Source: Nitrosococcus halophilus Nc 4
GTDB lineage: Bacteria; Pseudomonadota; Gammaproteobacteria; Nitrosococcales; Nitrosococcaceae
Direction: 5' to 3'
Length of the DNA stretch: 64,000 bases
NCBI RefSeq assembly: GCF_000024725.1
Contig: NC_013960.1
Location: forward strand, 186,001-250,000
The position numbers were made by a program, and so were the translations under genes. Under the pieces are notes generated by a model that worked only from the letters and a program-made list of their open reading frames with translations, had not been told where the DNA came from and ran no database searches. Shown here in pieces: positions 18,124-59,201 of the stretch (positions within the stretch are counted from its first letter, which is position 1; each line of letters starts with the position of its first letter).

Positions 18124-18618
18124 TCATAGCCCGATTCCAACTCCTATTCCAAAATGAAAGCCTGTTCTACCACCGCCTCCCGCTTCTTTTTCGCGGGGCC
18201 ATAAATAAATCTGCTCCGGTCGCAAAACCGGATAAGTATATTCCATTTCGCCAATCCTTCCCGTGGTGGTTTTTGTTATGCTGCCCACCACCGTCATCTC
18301 TCGCCCCGGTGAATAATCGATCGGTTCCAGAAAAGAGTCGCTTTGGAGAATGAAGCGGCCCAGAGGTTGAGCCTGGGTTTTGGGCTCTAGGTTGCCTGAA
18401 AGCGGGTAGGCCAGCACTTCCAGCATTGTGCTTTCCGCCAGACTCGTATGGTTAACGATAAGGCCACCCCACACCACCCTTTGCCCCTGGTAAGCATCAA
18501 AGTTGGCGGCCACTTCAGGAGGGGCAAGGTCTTGGGCGGCGCCAGCCGTCTCCAACTTAGGCGCAGTGGCACAAGAGCCCAGCCCTAGCGCGGCGAGCAT
18601 TAGGAAAACAAGCTTCAC
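18124..18618 (-). CDS. Slp family outer membrane lipoprotein (paralog 1)
   Basis: A 164-residue lipoprotein with lipobox GSC (Cys16). Family motifs are YQGQRVVWGG, LEVLAYPL, GRFILQSDSFLEP and a terminal YLWP. Slp proteins are starvation- or stationary-phase-inducible outer membrane lipoproteins in E. coli; the role here is unknown. The C-terminus ends in a glycine-rich tail (AGGGGRTGFHFGIGVGIGL). It lies 21 bases downstream of a second Slp gene, so the two form an operon and arose by tandem duplication. Confidence 0.85.
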   Translation of the reverse strand: MKLVFLMLAALGLGSCATAPKLETAGAAQDLAPPEVAANFDAYQGQRVVWGGLIVNHTSLAESTMLEVLAYPLSGNLEPKTQAQPLGRFILQSDSFLEPIDYSPGREMTVVGSITKTTTGRIGEMEYTYPVLRPEQIYLWPREKEAGGGGRTGFHFGIGVGIGL

Positions 18619-18639: not shown

Positions 18640-19203
18640 TTACCAATAATAAGGCCGCCGCCAAGGGTAAAACCAGGGATCGTAGAAAAAGGGACTGAAA
18701 CGATAGTAGGGCCAAGAGTAAAACCATGGGTCGTAGAAGAAGGGATCTGGATAGACATATTGCACGACCTTGCTGGGCCACAAGTAATCACGATCCACAT
18801 GGACCACCGGGTAGCGGTAGTTGAACGCGCCAATCTCGTCCGTTTCAGCACCGGTCACTTCTCCAAGGACCGTGATAAGGCGCCCGCTGGTGTAAATCGC
18901 CGGATCAAGGAACCCCGGGAAAGCGGCCAGAAAGCGCCCTGGACTCTCATCGACAGCCCTCGGTCTTCCCTCATTGTTGAGGGGTTTGCCGACGATTTCA
19001 ATGATGGTCCGCGCTTCAAAATTTTTGACTTCCTGAATAACGCCACCCCATCGCACTCTTTGCCCTTGAAAGTCATCAATATTGGCGCGCACGGTCTCAA
19101 TGCTCGGATTAACGGGCAACTCTTCCTGAATGGGCTTGGGCATTTGGGCGCACGCGGACAATAAAATCCCGAGGATGAAAATGGGGTAGCGCTGTTTCTT
19201 CAT
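18640..19203 (-). CDS. Slp family outer membrane lipoprotein (paralog 2)
   Basis: A 187-residue lipoprotein with lipobox SAC (Cys18). It matches its downstream neighbour over the Slp core (FQGQRVRWGGVI, IIEIVGKPL, GRFLAAFPGFLDP, DYLWP). Unlike paralog 1 it carries a C-terminal aromatic tail with a twofold repeat, PFFYDPWFYSW and PFFYDPWFYPW. Its upstream region runs straight into the detached 3' end of yhhQ. Confidence 0.85.
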   Translation of the reverse strand: MKKQRYPIFILGILLSACAQMPKPIQEELPVNPSIETVRANIDDFQGQRVRWGGVIQEVKNFEARTIIEIVGKPLNNEGRPRAVDESPGRFLAAFPGFLDPAIYTSGRLITVLGEVTGAETDEIGAFNYRYPVVHVDRDYLWPSKVVQYVYPDPFFYDPWFYSWPYYRFSPFFYDPWFYPWRRPYYW

Positions 19204-19238: not shown

Positions 19239-20253
19239 TCAGTCCGATTGATCCTGTCTTTTAAATTTTTTGATCTTGAATGGGTTGAAATTCGTTTCAT
19301 GGTCGTAAACATCGGCTCTTTCAGTACGTTGGAGCCTCACATGGATGTTAGGCGCCCCCCTAACAAGGTTGCGAAGTGAAACGGCGCGCCGAGCGCGAGG
19401 GCCACATTAGTTGCGTTTTGCCATGAATTGGCGCTATGATTTTCTTGCTCTCGGAGCCTAGGGTGGGGAGCACCCGAAGTGAAAGCGCGAGGAGCGGTAA
19501 AGACCCCAAGACCAAGGTCACCCCTTGGTTGAGGACCGCGAGGAACCGCGAATTCTCCAGATTGATGAAGTTTTGTAGGAACAAAATTGAAATCAGTCAT
19601 GGCGAAACTCCAATCAAGTAGTTAACCACTAGATAAGTGAGGGGAGTTGCCACTGTCTCATATGCGGATTTCACGCCCCATTGGATCAGGATGGCGAGAA
19701 CTAGACCTTCCAGCGGTATAGTGCCCAAAAAGGCTACGATGATGAACACCGCTGAGTCCAGTCCCTGACCCACAAGTGTGGAGCCAATAGTACGTGTCCA
19801 TAGCCAGCGTCCTTGGGTGGCGATCTTCATCTTGGCAAGCACGTAGGCATTGGTGAACTCGCCCACCAGATAGGCCAGGAAGGAAACCAGCAACAGGCGA
19901 GGGGCATAGCCCAGAATGCGCTCAAAGGCTTCTTGCCCATCCCAGAATGCAGCGGGAGGCAGTGCCATGGCCAAGGTGATGGCGCCTACTGCCAAGAGGT
20001 TACAGAAAAAGCCCAGCCATATCACCTGGCGGGCGCGACGGTAACCGTAGACCTCAGTCAGCACATCGCCGATGATATAGCTCAGGGGAAAGATGATCAC
20101 CCCGGCTGGCATGACCCAGCCCCAAATATCGATTAGCTTGACGGCAATAATGTTGGCGATGAGCAAGGAGGTGATGAAGCCTGCTAGGATCACCAGGAAG
20201 GCAGGAGAATAGCTACTCTTGGTCCTTGTTGGATTAATTGTCTGAGCATCCAT
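19239..20253 (-). pseudogene. yhhQ: Queuosine precursor transporter YhhQ, interrupted near its 3' end by a short tnpB-derived element
   Basis: The 5' part (19614-20253) encodes a multi-helix VUT/ECF-type membrane protein with GDVLTEVYGYRRARQVIWLG and LVGEFTNAYVLAKMK, the YhhQ family that imports preQ0/preQ1. As it stands translation reads into the inserted element and stops after four foreign codons (GVSP), giving 218 residues. Beyond the element, 19239-19330 in the restored frame encodes KRTERADVYDHETNFNPFK..., containing the TNFNPF motif typical of the YhhQ C-terminus. About 32 native residues are lost; whether the shortened protein still works is unknown. Start ATG 20253 follows AGGGAGG. 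Confidence 0.88.
19331..19613 (+). mobile_element. Short tnpB-less element, copy A (omegaRNA-like segment plus both ends)
   Basis: A 283-bp unit bounded by GGAGCC... and ...AAACTCCAA. It is about 96 percent identical by eye to copy B and matches the left end and the last ~160 bases of the tnpB element at 57892-59201. It contains GCGCGAGGGCCACATTA from the left end and GAGCGGTAAAGACCCCAAG plus GAGGACCGCGAGGAA from the right end. Hairpins are at 19461-19475 and 19511-19529, with a third at 19570-19587. It carries no transposase or nuclease gene. Inserted antisense in yhhQ. Confidence 0.85.
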
Positions 20254-34330: not shown

Positions 34331-34613
34331 GGAGCCTCACATGGATGTTAGGCGACCCCCTAGCAAGGTCGCGAAGTGAAACGGCGCGCCGAGCGCGAGG
34401 GCCGCATTGCTTGCGTTTTGCCATGAATTGGCGCTATGGTTTTCTTGCTCTCGGAGCCTAGGGTGGGGAGCGCCCGAAGTGAAAGCGCGAGGAGCGGTAA
34501 AGACCCCAAGACCAAGGTCATCCCTTCGTCGAGGACCGCGAGGAACCGCGAATTCTCCAGATTGATGAAGTTTTGTAGGAACAAAATTGAAATCAGTCAT
34601 GGCGAAACTCCAA
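34331..34613 (+). mobile_element. Short tnpB-less element, copy B
   Basis: 283 bp, about 11 differences from copy A by eye, with the same ends (GGAGCC... and ...AAACTCCAA). It lies between tonB and yqgE on the opposite strand to them and supplies the last codons and stop of tonB. The hairpin at 34461-34475 keeps pairing by a G-T wobble (GGGTG with CGCCC). Confidence 0.85.
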
Positions 34614-49011: not shown

Positions 49012-49760
49012 TCAATGCTCAGCGCGAAGGGCAGCGATCCGCTCTTCAATGGGCGGGTGGGACATGAATAAACGCTGCCAGCCCGATCTGCCTCCGGCGA
49101 TCCCAAAAGCATGAAGCTGATCCGAAAGACCTTCCTGGGCTAGTCGACCTAACCGCTCTAGCGCTGCAATCATCTTTTCCCTGCCGGCTAGTTGGGAGCC
49201 GCCTGCATCGGCTCGAAATTCACGCTGACGGCTGAACCACAAGACGATGAGGCTGGCGAGGATGGCAGGCACCATCTCGGCGATGATGGTGGTTATCCAG
49301 TTGGAGTTTCGCCATGACTGATTTCAATTTTATTCCTACAAAACTTCATCAATCTGGAGAATTCGCGGTTCCTCGCGGTCCTCGACGAAGGGGTGACCTT
49401 GGTCTTGGGGTCTTTACCGCTCCTCGCGCTTTCACTTCGGGTGCTCCCCACCCTAGGCTCCGAGAGCAAGAAATCATAGCGCCAATTCATGGCAAAACGT
49501 AAGTCATGCGGCCCTCGCGCTCGGCGCGCCGTTTCACTTCGCGACCTCGCTGGCGGGTCGCCTAACTTCCATGTGAGGCTCCAAAGCAGGGCCATGACCA
49601 CGCTCGGTTTTAAATACCACCCGATCCACCAGATGGCCGATCACCCGGGACAGGAAAATCACGAAAGTGTTGATTACCCCCTGAATCAAAGCCAGGGTGA
49701 TCATGTCGCCGTTAGCCACATGGCTGACTTCATGGCCCAATACCGCTTCTGAGAAGCGAT
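49012..49760 (-). pseudogene. htpX: Protease HtpX, N-terminally deleted and split by a short element
   Basis: The upstream half (49583 to ~49748) encodes [17 protein letters not shown]...[19 protein letters not shown]...ERGHGPA with the zinc motif HEVSH. The downstream half (49012-49310) encodes WITTIIAEM, WFSRQREFRADAGGSQLAG, ending SHPPIEERIAAL. Copy C is inserted exactly between PA and WIT; removing it restores Ala-Phe-Trp. About 125 N-terminal residues, including the first membrane helices, are missing upstream, so the gene was also truncated. HtpX is an inner-membrane quality-control protease. A different HtpX-like gene lies next to it. Confidence 0.9.
49311..49582 (-). mobile_element. 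Short tnpB-less element, copy C
   Basis: 272 bp, same family as copies A and B but inverted and about 11 bases shorter. On the minus strand it runs GGAGCCTCACATGG... to ...CATGGCGAAACTCCAA. It sits in sense orientation inside htpX. Part of its left end (ACCCGCCAGCGAG) is closer to the tnpB element's left end (CCCCCCAGCGAG) than are copies A and B. Confidence 0.85.
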
Positions 49761-57891: not shown

Positions 57892-59201
57892 GAAGGAGTG
57901 CATGGACGCACGACGACCCCCCAGCGAGAGTGCGAAGCTTGCTACGCGGTGAGCGCGAGGGCCACATTACTTTCGTTTCGCCATGAATTCGCGTTTCGCG
58001 TAGTTGGCCAGCCCTTGAGTATTCTTTTGCCATAGGCGACAGTTGTGGCATGATGGCTGCGTGGTAACGCAACGGGCCTACAAATTCAGGTTTTACCCTA
58101 CGCCCACGCAAAAGCGGCAATTGGCCATTGAATTCGGCCATGCCCGCTATGTGTGGAATTGGGCGTTGGAAACGCGAACGAAGGCGTATAAAGCGCAGGG
58201 CGAGTCGCTGAACACTATCAGCCTCAGCCGCCAATTGACGGTACTGAAGCAAACGGAATGCCCTTGGCTGAGCGAAGCCACCGCCAGTTGCCATACCCAA
58301 AAACTGAGGGACCAAGATACGGCGTTTAAAAACTTCTTCGCCGGTCGGGCCAAGTATCCCCGATTTAAGAAACGCCACCAAACGCAATCGGTGCGCTATC
58401 AACTCGATCAACGCCATATAGAAAAGAACTTCAACGCCGAAAGCAAGCGGTTGAAGCTGCCCAAGCTGGGTACGCTCAAGCTCAAGTGGTCTCAGCGTAT
58501 GGGGGGCATCCCCAAAATGGTCACGGTCAGCAAAGACCCGGCTGGCCGTTATTTCGTCAGCATGGCCTGCGAGGTAGAGATTCTCCCCTTGCCTGTGCGA
58601 AGGAACGCTATCGGCGTGGATGTGGGCGTCAAGGATGTGGTTATCACTTCCGATGGGTATAAGTCGGGTGCGCCCAAATACACCTACCGCTATGCCCGTC
58701 AATTGAAGCGGGCGCAGCGACGCTTGAGCAAGAAGCGTAAAGGCGCCAACCGCCGCCGCCAGCAGCAACAGCGTGTGGCCAGAATTCATGCCCGGATAGC
58801 GGATAGCCGCCGGGATTTTCTGAACCAACAATCCTCGAAGCTGATTAACGAGAACCAAGTAATTTGTCTTGAGGATTTGAATATCAAAGGGATGTTGAGA
58901 AATCGCCGCCTGAGTAAAGCCGTCGCGGATTGCGGGACTATTCAAGAGCCCATGCCGCTCAAAGTTCGCGAGTGGGTTTGCCCGGACTGTAATACCAGCC
59001 ATGATCGCGATATCAACGCGGCCAAAAATGTTTTGATGTTGGGTACGGCGGGGAGCGCCGAAACCGATAAAGCGCGTGGAGCGGTAAAGACCCCAAGGGC
59101 CGTGGCCTAGCCACCGTCTGAGGACCGCGAGGAAACGCGAATTCTCCAGACTGACAAGGTGAGGATGGACCGAACCGTAGTCAGTCATGGCGAAACTCCA
59201 A
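57892..59201 (+). mobile_element. TnpB element (IS200/IS605 or IS607 type) without tnpA
   Basis: About 1.31 kb between gabD and a response regulator gene. It begins near GAAGGAGTGCATGGACGCAC and ends ...CATGGCGAAACTCCAA. It carries tnpB but no tnpA, so it is immobile alone. Inside, GTTTCGCCATGA of the left end is the inverse of TCATGGCGAAAC of the right end. It is the parent type of the three short copies. Hairpins at 59047-59059 and 59102-59114 lie in and just after the tnpB 3' end, where omegaRNA scaffolds are encoded. Confidence 0.8.
58061..59110 (+). CDS. tnpB: RNA-guided nuclease TnpB, with internal deletion
   Basis: About 349 residues. N-terminal helix-turn-helix-like domain (QRAYKFRFYPTPTQKRQLAI), RuvC-I GVDVGVKDVVIT, RuvC-II ICLEDLNIKGMLRNR and RuvC-III HDRDINAAKN, so all three catalytic acids are present. 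After LSKAVADCG the normal ~35-40 residues (…FYEFRRQL…SSKxCxxCG) are missing and the text resumes TIQEPMPLKVREWVCPDC. The first CxxC of the zinc finger is lost. GTG 58061 begins MVTQRAYK, the usual start; a TTG at 58043 is less likely. Probably inactive or impaired. Confidence 0.85.
   Translation: MVTQRAYKFRFYPTPTQKRQLAIEFGHARYVWNWALETRTKAYKAQGESLNTISLSRQLTVLKQTECPWLSEATASCHTQKLRDQDTAFKNFFAGRAKYPRFKKRHQTQSVRYQLDQRHIEKNFNAESKRLKLPKLGTLKLKWSQRMGGIPKMVTVSKDPAGRYFVSMACEVEILPLPVRRNAIGVDVGVKDVVITSDGYKSGAPKYTYRYARQLKRAQRRLSKKRKGANRRRQQQQRVARIHARIADSRRDFLNQQSSKLINENQVICLEDLNIKGMLRNRRLSKAVADCGTIQEPMPLKVREWVCPDCNTSHDRDINAAKNVLMLGTAGSAETDKARGAVKTPRAVA

Follow-up and report, generated by a model that had tools for sequence, protein, structure and literature searches.

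The window, that is the whole analysed stretch of 64,000 nucleotides from the 4.15 Mb genome (two contigs) of Nitrosococcus halophilus Nc 4, carries three short elements and one longer element with tnpB. Short element A (19331..19613, plus strand) is without tnpB, follows the target CGTT, begins with GGAGCC and ends with CTCCAA. It is adjoined by two neighbouring genes for Slp-family outer membrane lipoproteins (18124-18618 and 18640-19203, both minus strand). Sequence comparison places short element B at 34331..34613 (plus strand), short element C at 49301..49582 (minus strand) and the tnpB element at 57892..59201 (plus strand). Complete short elements of this genome measure 267-285 bases with TT excluded. 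They begin with GGAG or GAAG 3' of a CNTT motif, whose C is present in 22 of 23 left flanks (TT was part of the search pattern), and end with CTCCAA, beyond which the sequence varies among 25 right ends.

In A, the left end forms a hairpin (19334..19353, plus strand) with an ATGGA-type loop that is constant across copies while the stems vary; it is probably a DNA signal for the transposase. Pattern and weight-matrix scans both find a promoter-like site, TTGCGT-18-TATGAT, at 19411..19440 (plus strand), with putative activity. The right end then runs from hairpin 1 (H1, 19461..19475, GGGAG loop at 19466-19470) through GGAG and a core stem enclosing hairpin 2 (H2) to a subterminal hairpin and CTCCAA, all on the plus strand. 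The core stem (19494..19539) pairs GCGGT at 19494-19498 with ACCGC at 19535-19539, and the outer stem around it (19486..19550) pairs CGCG(A) at 19486-19490 with (C)CGCG at 19546-19550 and is formed in most copies. H2 occupies 19511..19529 (ACCAAGG/CCTTGGT) and the subterminal hairpin 19560..19598 (GATTGAT/ATCAGTC).

The tnpB gene lies at 58043..59110 (plus strand). Its product scores over the cut-offs of PF01385, PF12323 and PF07282 in Pfam and of NF040570 in NCBIfam, and below the cut-off of 425 for NF038281. Comparison with solved structures returns an AI-designed nuclease first, followed by 8h1j and 8bf8, which we take to be ISDra2 TnpB, and the resemblance to solved TnpBs is nearly full-length. 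The gene has an internal deletion ahead of the first zinc-finger cysteines, which leaves it about 36 residues short of the longest frames of the own genome; three other tnpB copies of the genome hold long open frames of 399 codons. The segment in RNA sense, about 160 bases, runs from the last codons of tnpB to the CTCCAA of the right end. It overlaps the last 22 codons (59042..59107, plus strand), with H1 at 59047-59059.

Other genes are found next to ends of this kind. Some tnpB elements (L077 at 317-469, L079 and L080) carry by the left end a small divergent ribbon-helix-helix gene on the strand opposite to tnpB (RHH_1, E 2e-7 in L077), the last codons of which resemble the stretch upstream of the promoter-like site of the short elements. 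At four places of the own genome (L084-L087, at C2:1871410, 1846423, 1736552 and 2975784) a left end like those of the family is adjoined by a gene for an IscB of 427 residues on the opposite strand, and in L084 the IscB product was checked and scores over the cut-off of NF040563. One end type seems to be common to TnpB, IscB and short elements.

The original prediction, made from the window alone, proposed that compensatory changes in H1 and H2 point to a selected RNA. All H1 letters that it gave for A, C, B and the tnpB element are present, as are the quoted hairpin sequences as a whole, and the two stretches it called nearly invariant each occur exactly four times in the window, against 0.03 in shuffles when up to 3 mismatches are allowed and 0.13 with up to 2. 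The single mismatch that it assigned to H2 of B is there (C.C) and is found in C as well, so that A is the odd copy. The window alone is thin evidence, since the three short copies differ in H1 by one base only.

We therefore turn to the relatives, with which the evidence for H1 becomes strong. Element A used as a DNA query gives 40 matches in its own genome, which fall on short elements, on the left and right parts of tnpB elements as separate matches, and on lone left ends. A DNA search finds the right end in 5 of 59 genomes, namely the own genome, three others of its genus and one further member of its family. A covariance model built from 25 right ends of the own genome (14 short, 11 tnpB-linked) yields 28, 35, 70, 17 and 6 matches in five genomes, 156 in all, and 0 in a sixth; in a class-wide sample of 274 genomes with strict filters, matches are restricted to the own genome and to one genome of another family (G173). 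We collected 122 of the 156 matches (27, 23, 51, 15 and 6 per genome), the omitted ones being mostly weaker, and set 25 aside by eye as truncated, lacking the H1 region or hard to align. The working set of 97 copies (96 distinct) comprises 65 without and 32 with traces of tnpB, as detected by tblastn within 330 bases upstream. For the gapless block alignment 92 of the 97 rows were used, with five short copies dropped because their H1 was out of register, which gave 84 distinct copies, 104 columns and 5050 column pairs. The G173 copies were excluded from all covariation tests, which were run with our own scripts in the manner of R-scape.

In the gapless blocks, the five H1 pairs, 96-100% paired, take ranks 1 to 5 of all 5050 column pairs. 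Their E values over all pairs are at most 0.01, 0.04-0.10, 0.09-0.14, 0.79-0.88 and 0.85-0.90. Limited to the 34 pairs of the structure, E ranges from 0.00007 to 0.006, values that are optimistic because the structure was chosen on the same sequences. When the partners are slid by 1-3 columns, 0-1 pairs are significant compared to 9, and pairing falls from 93.5% to 33-40%. A structure-blind MAFFT alignment of 96 distinct rows and 169 columns was evaluated by G-test with average-product correction. Of its 13,695 column pairs, the outermost pair of H1 scores highest and the innermost one next, and their scores are unmatched in 60 null alignments of either kind. Every other pair falls short of significance in this alignment, including the three in the middle of H1, which are 95-97% paired. 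The constant loop on a changing stem, as originally described, extends to five stem types under a GGGAG-type loop among the aligned copies: GGGTG/CACCC, GGGTC/GACCC, GGCG/CGCC, CCCTC/GAGGG and CCGGC/GCCGG. A GGTAG variant, with T at the loop site, is found in 11 of 84 copies. The compensatory change in H1 is real.

H1 pairing holds in copies without a linked protein gene. The 55 distinct tnpB-less copies are 97.8% paired in H1 against a null mean of 61.7%, with 0 of 300 null values as high. The same is obtained for the short copies of group III alone (98.5% vs 88.1%, 0/300) and of groups I and II alone (97.2% vs 75.5%, 0/300). Mapped on a tree, the H1 pairs of short copies show 12 changes of both partners, 11 of a single partner that preserve pairing, and 5 that break it. 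As far as sequence comparison can tell, H1 pairing is kept by selection while its letters changed.

A second feature of the short copies is the promoter-like site. Of 55 short copies, 41 have the pattern TTGNNN-17/18-TANNNT shortly before H1, compared to 1.2 in shuffles (highest 4), counts that are not independent events because the copies are related. The scan took 55 of the 65 aligned short copies and left out ten divergent ones. The other strand of the short copies gives 0 matches, and none of 22 tnpB-linked copies has the pattern (0.6 in shuffles). A weight-matrix scan of the same 55 copies gives a mean z of 1.6. Both features bear on the view that the short elements are decaying or passive remnants, whose H1 changes stem from tnpB-linked ancestors by repeated origin or copy exchange and whose RNA is useless now. 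Many copies are indeed truncated or odd, one tnpB-linked copy of a related genome (L132 in G004) has a group III-like H1, and some copies have a subterminal hairpin whose two arms do not match, as if exchanged. We nevertheless consider passive decay unlikely, as H1 pairing exceeds the null within the groups taken separately, the promoter-like site is confined to short copies, and an H1 of group I or II type is found in none of the collected tnpB-linked right ends.

For the remaining stems the picture is more graded. H2 is weakly supported as a selected RNA hairpin, so that the original proposal of a selected RNA stands for H1 and less so for H2: its best pair in the MAFFT alignment (68-84) is 98% paired with E about 1.1, and isolated H2 folds beat shuffles with a mean z of -1.6 over 53 distinct segments, which include only about three of the longer group III-type segments. 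In the gapless blocks, restricted to the structure, three of the five core-stem pairs reach E 0.03-0.06 and one of 13 pairs of the subterminal hairpin reaches 0.02, and no significant covariation is seen in the lower H1 pairs, the outer stem or the proposed pseudoknot. In the 55 distinct tnpB-less copies, the core stem is 95.3% paired compared to 50.8% in the null (0/300 as high), the inner subterminal hairpin 90.9% compared to 76.1% (0/300) and the outer stem 89.8% compared to 78.2% (17/300). Taken alone, neither group III (28/300) nor groups I and II (138/300) give a significant result for the core stem. The idea that the base of the outer stem covaries with a base 5' of H1 was dropped, as L009 and L094 do not fit.

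Hairpins near both transposon ends likewise show paired letter changes, and compensatory change alone therefore cannot tell selection on RNA from selection on single-stranded DNA. It could be argued that all hairpins are DNA-only signals, read in single-stranded form by the Y1 transposase, with the RNA of the short elements irrelevant. The left-end hairpins, which lie outside the RNA, keep pairing with changed letters, and the subterminal right-end hairpin shows covariation and corresponds, according to the accessible part of PMC10278001, to a known site of the transposase. H1, by contrast, lies about 140 bases from the right end and carries the strongest covariation, rather than the subterminal hairpin. 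The original prediction also noted that H1 lies within tnpB codons, so that RNA and protein overlap, and from H1 onwards to the end of the gene synonymous sites are indeed constant. Eight long open tnpB frames, drawn from four genomes, were compared: within the last 22 codons, a stretch beginning at H1, 531 of 570 synonymous comparisons have the same third base, compared to 5612 of 8112 upstream (93% vs 69%). None of 398 equal-sized windows reaches this value, the highest being 0.89, and five representative frames give 187/202 compared to 1872/2871 upstream. Amino-acid identity in the last 22 codons is also higher (0.93 vs 0.82). In addition, at least eight copies, recognised by eye, have no H1 and have the left end fused straight to the outer stem; they are followed by different sequences, although H1 may have been lost after insertion. 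Distance, synonymous constraint and H1-less copies separate RNA from DNA selection in H1, if indirectly, and together they make a pure DNA signal improbable, more so than passive decay. The subterminal hairpin probably serves both the RNA and the transposase.

The short elements with both ends and without tnpB occupy differing genomic sites. Orthologous sites without the element are found for A in G003, for C in G001 and G002 and for L010 in G003, and for A and C the join of the empty sites falls after TT. A target motif TTGG/TTGA was rejected, since the element-free sites of relatives join after TT; a reading frame that is seemingly open across L005 if four bases are kept runs against the TT join. 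A copy shared at the same site was seen once, L015 in G003; the G003 sites of B and L013 carry other sequence, and the site of L011 matched through the join. A further reading, in which the host has adopted single short copies as regulatory RNAs fixed in place, such as guides for a TnpB that does not cut, could draw on the promoter-like site and the internal deletion of the window's own tnpB and is the least probable of the alternatives, with A, C and L010 missing at the orthologous sites of relatives and following sequences that vary among copies.

We conclude that the hairpins are very probably part of an omegaRNA (reRNA) scaffold of an IS200/IS605-type TnpB that is copied in tnpB-less mini-elements. 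As described in the accessible part of PMC10278001, the omegaRNA of TnpB shares sequence with the 3' end of tnpB and stops at the right end; its guide comes from outside, and a subterminal hairpin lies near the scaffold end. The overlap with the 3' end of tnpB, the stop at the right end and the outside position of the guide fit this description and support the assignment. Here, the RNA starts in the last 22 codons, the scaffold ends at the right end and is followed by outside sequence with a predicted guide role, in A the host sequence at 19614..19633 (plus strand) directly 3' of the right end, and the subterminal stem found by RNAalifold closes 7 columns from the scaffold end, where an omegaRNA hairpin is expected within about 10 nt. 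In contrast to the omegaRNA as far as described there (PMC10278001), many copies here are without tnpB, most of these have a promoter-like site, and a 5' hairpin with a constant loop covaries.

Similar to the reRNA of ISFba1, an IS607 TnpB element, which is derived from RAGATH-18 RNA, the RNA has a hairpin on its 5' side, GGAG after an outer stem, a hairpin on an inner stem and a 3' part by the guide (PMC11061315, accessible part); the correspondence of stems is a reading by eye. They differ in that the ends are of IS605 type here and of IS607 type there, and in that copy A has no RAGATH-18 match. The same part of PMC11061315 describes base pairing between the apical loop of that 5' hairpin and a place near the guide. 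By analogy, we infer that the H1 loop may form a pseudoknot with CTCC at 19608..19611 (plus strand), which adjoins the guide in A. Such pairing would account for a GGGAG loop that stays the same while its stem changes. Loop and CTCC hardly vary in these copies and give no covariation signal, and copies with a GGTAG loop fit less well.

Rfam at gathering score reports only a tRNA in the window. For copy A no family is found, and loose thresholds give four low-scoring matches to unrelated families; L169 has no matches at loose thresholds, and RAGATH-18 RNA (RF03064) matches neither A nor L169 up to E 10. RAGATH-18-like RNA does occur in elements with this left end, none of them found with tnpB and all below gathering score: L089 (622-694, plus strand) at E 0.008, and L088 (589-661, minus strand), L090 (563-635, plus strand) and L007 (1914-1986, plus strand) at E 0.5-1.2.

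TnpB-less derivatives of IS605 are already known as PATEs, palindrome-associated transposable elements of Haloquadratum, which the accessible part of PMC3119063 describes as degenerate ends without RNA; one of them, HqIRS71, includes part of the TnpB C-terminal region. The short elements resemble these short IS605-type elements with terminal palindromes and without transposase gene or target duplication: they are about 280 bases long, have near-terminal palindromes, show no target duplication at the empty sites of A, C and L010 and hold no complete transposase gene. Unlike PATEs as portrayed there (PMC3119063), they keep a scaffold RNA by selection on pairing. Among literature titles, in a search that most subscription papers lay outside, none concerns tnpB-less elements keeping a covarying omegaRNA, and nothing on such elements is contained in PMC12558985 by word search or in the accessible part of PMC11870625.

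A possible course of events can be outlined. The RNA of the short elements would be transcribed from the promoter just upstream of H1 and run through the right end into host DNA, which would serve as guide, and the GGGAG loop would dock on CUCC beside it. Loaded in trans into the TnpB of another copy, it would direct cutting of the empty site left by excision, recognised by the CNTT motif and then the guide sequence, and repair from the sister copy would restore the element. Movement of short elements would need a Y1 transposase supplied in trans, for which the own genome has 17 Y1 matches. The RNAs of short elements are about 75% identical to tnpB-linked ones, and because of this difference loading into the resident TnpB is not assured. 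OmegaRNAs encoded away from the nuclease and guides encoded by PATEs were reportedly described by Altae-Tran in 2021 and Meers in 2023; in these systems the guide RNA is likewise separate from the nuclease gene.

The genome of the other gammaproteobacterial family, G173, gives 23 model matches in a fuller search. Ten fetched elements of about 360 bases are near-identical, end with CTCCAA and continue into ten different sequences; all ten left flanks have C at -4 and T at -2, with either T or C at -1. Their H1 has a CGGGC/GCCCG stem and a GGTAG loop. The fetched stretches contain no TnpB match, and the promoter pattern is absent from the one stretch examined for it. Besides fragments, the genome does hold two long open frames for TnpB, with 49% and 37% identity to the query, and the covariance model finds no RNA at either long frame.

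We tentatively propose, as a reading somewhat short of even odds, that the short elements are a long-lived, selfish class consisting of guide RNA only, which gave up the nuclease gene, gained its own promoter, borrows TnpB for self-restoration and has spread its layout to a second gammaproteobacterial family. If so, a mobile element can have a TnpB guide RNA as its only selected cargo and borrow the nuclease as well as the transposase. Many natural pairs of scaffold and guide would then be on offer in these genomes, and the compensatory H1 variants would be a ready test set for recognition by TnpB. The case also carries a warning, as compensatory change in IS605-derived repeats can stem from DNA hairpins as well as from RNA.

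Finally, several copies have insertions of REP-like palindromes, for instance CCTGCCTG...CAGACAGG, within or beside hairpins of the RNA. They are located in the subterminal loop in L141, L147 and L165 and in the outer stem in L164, and they replace H1 in L144 and L177.
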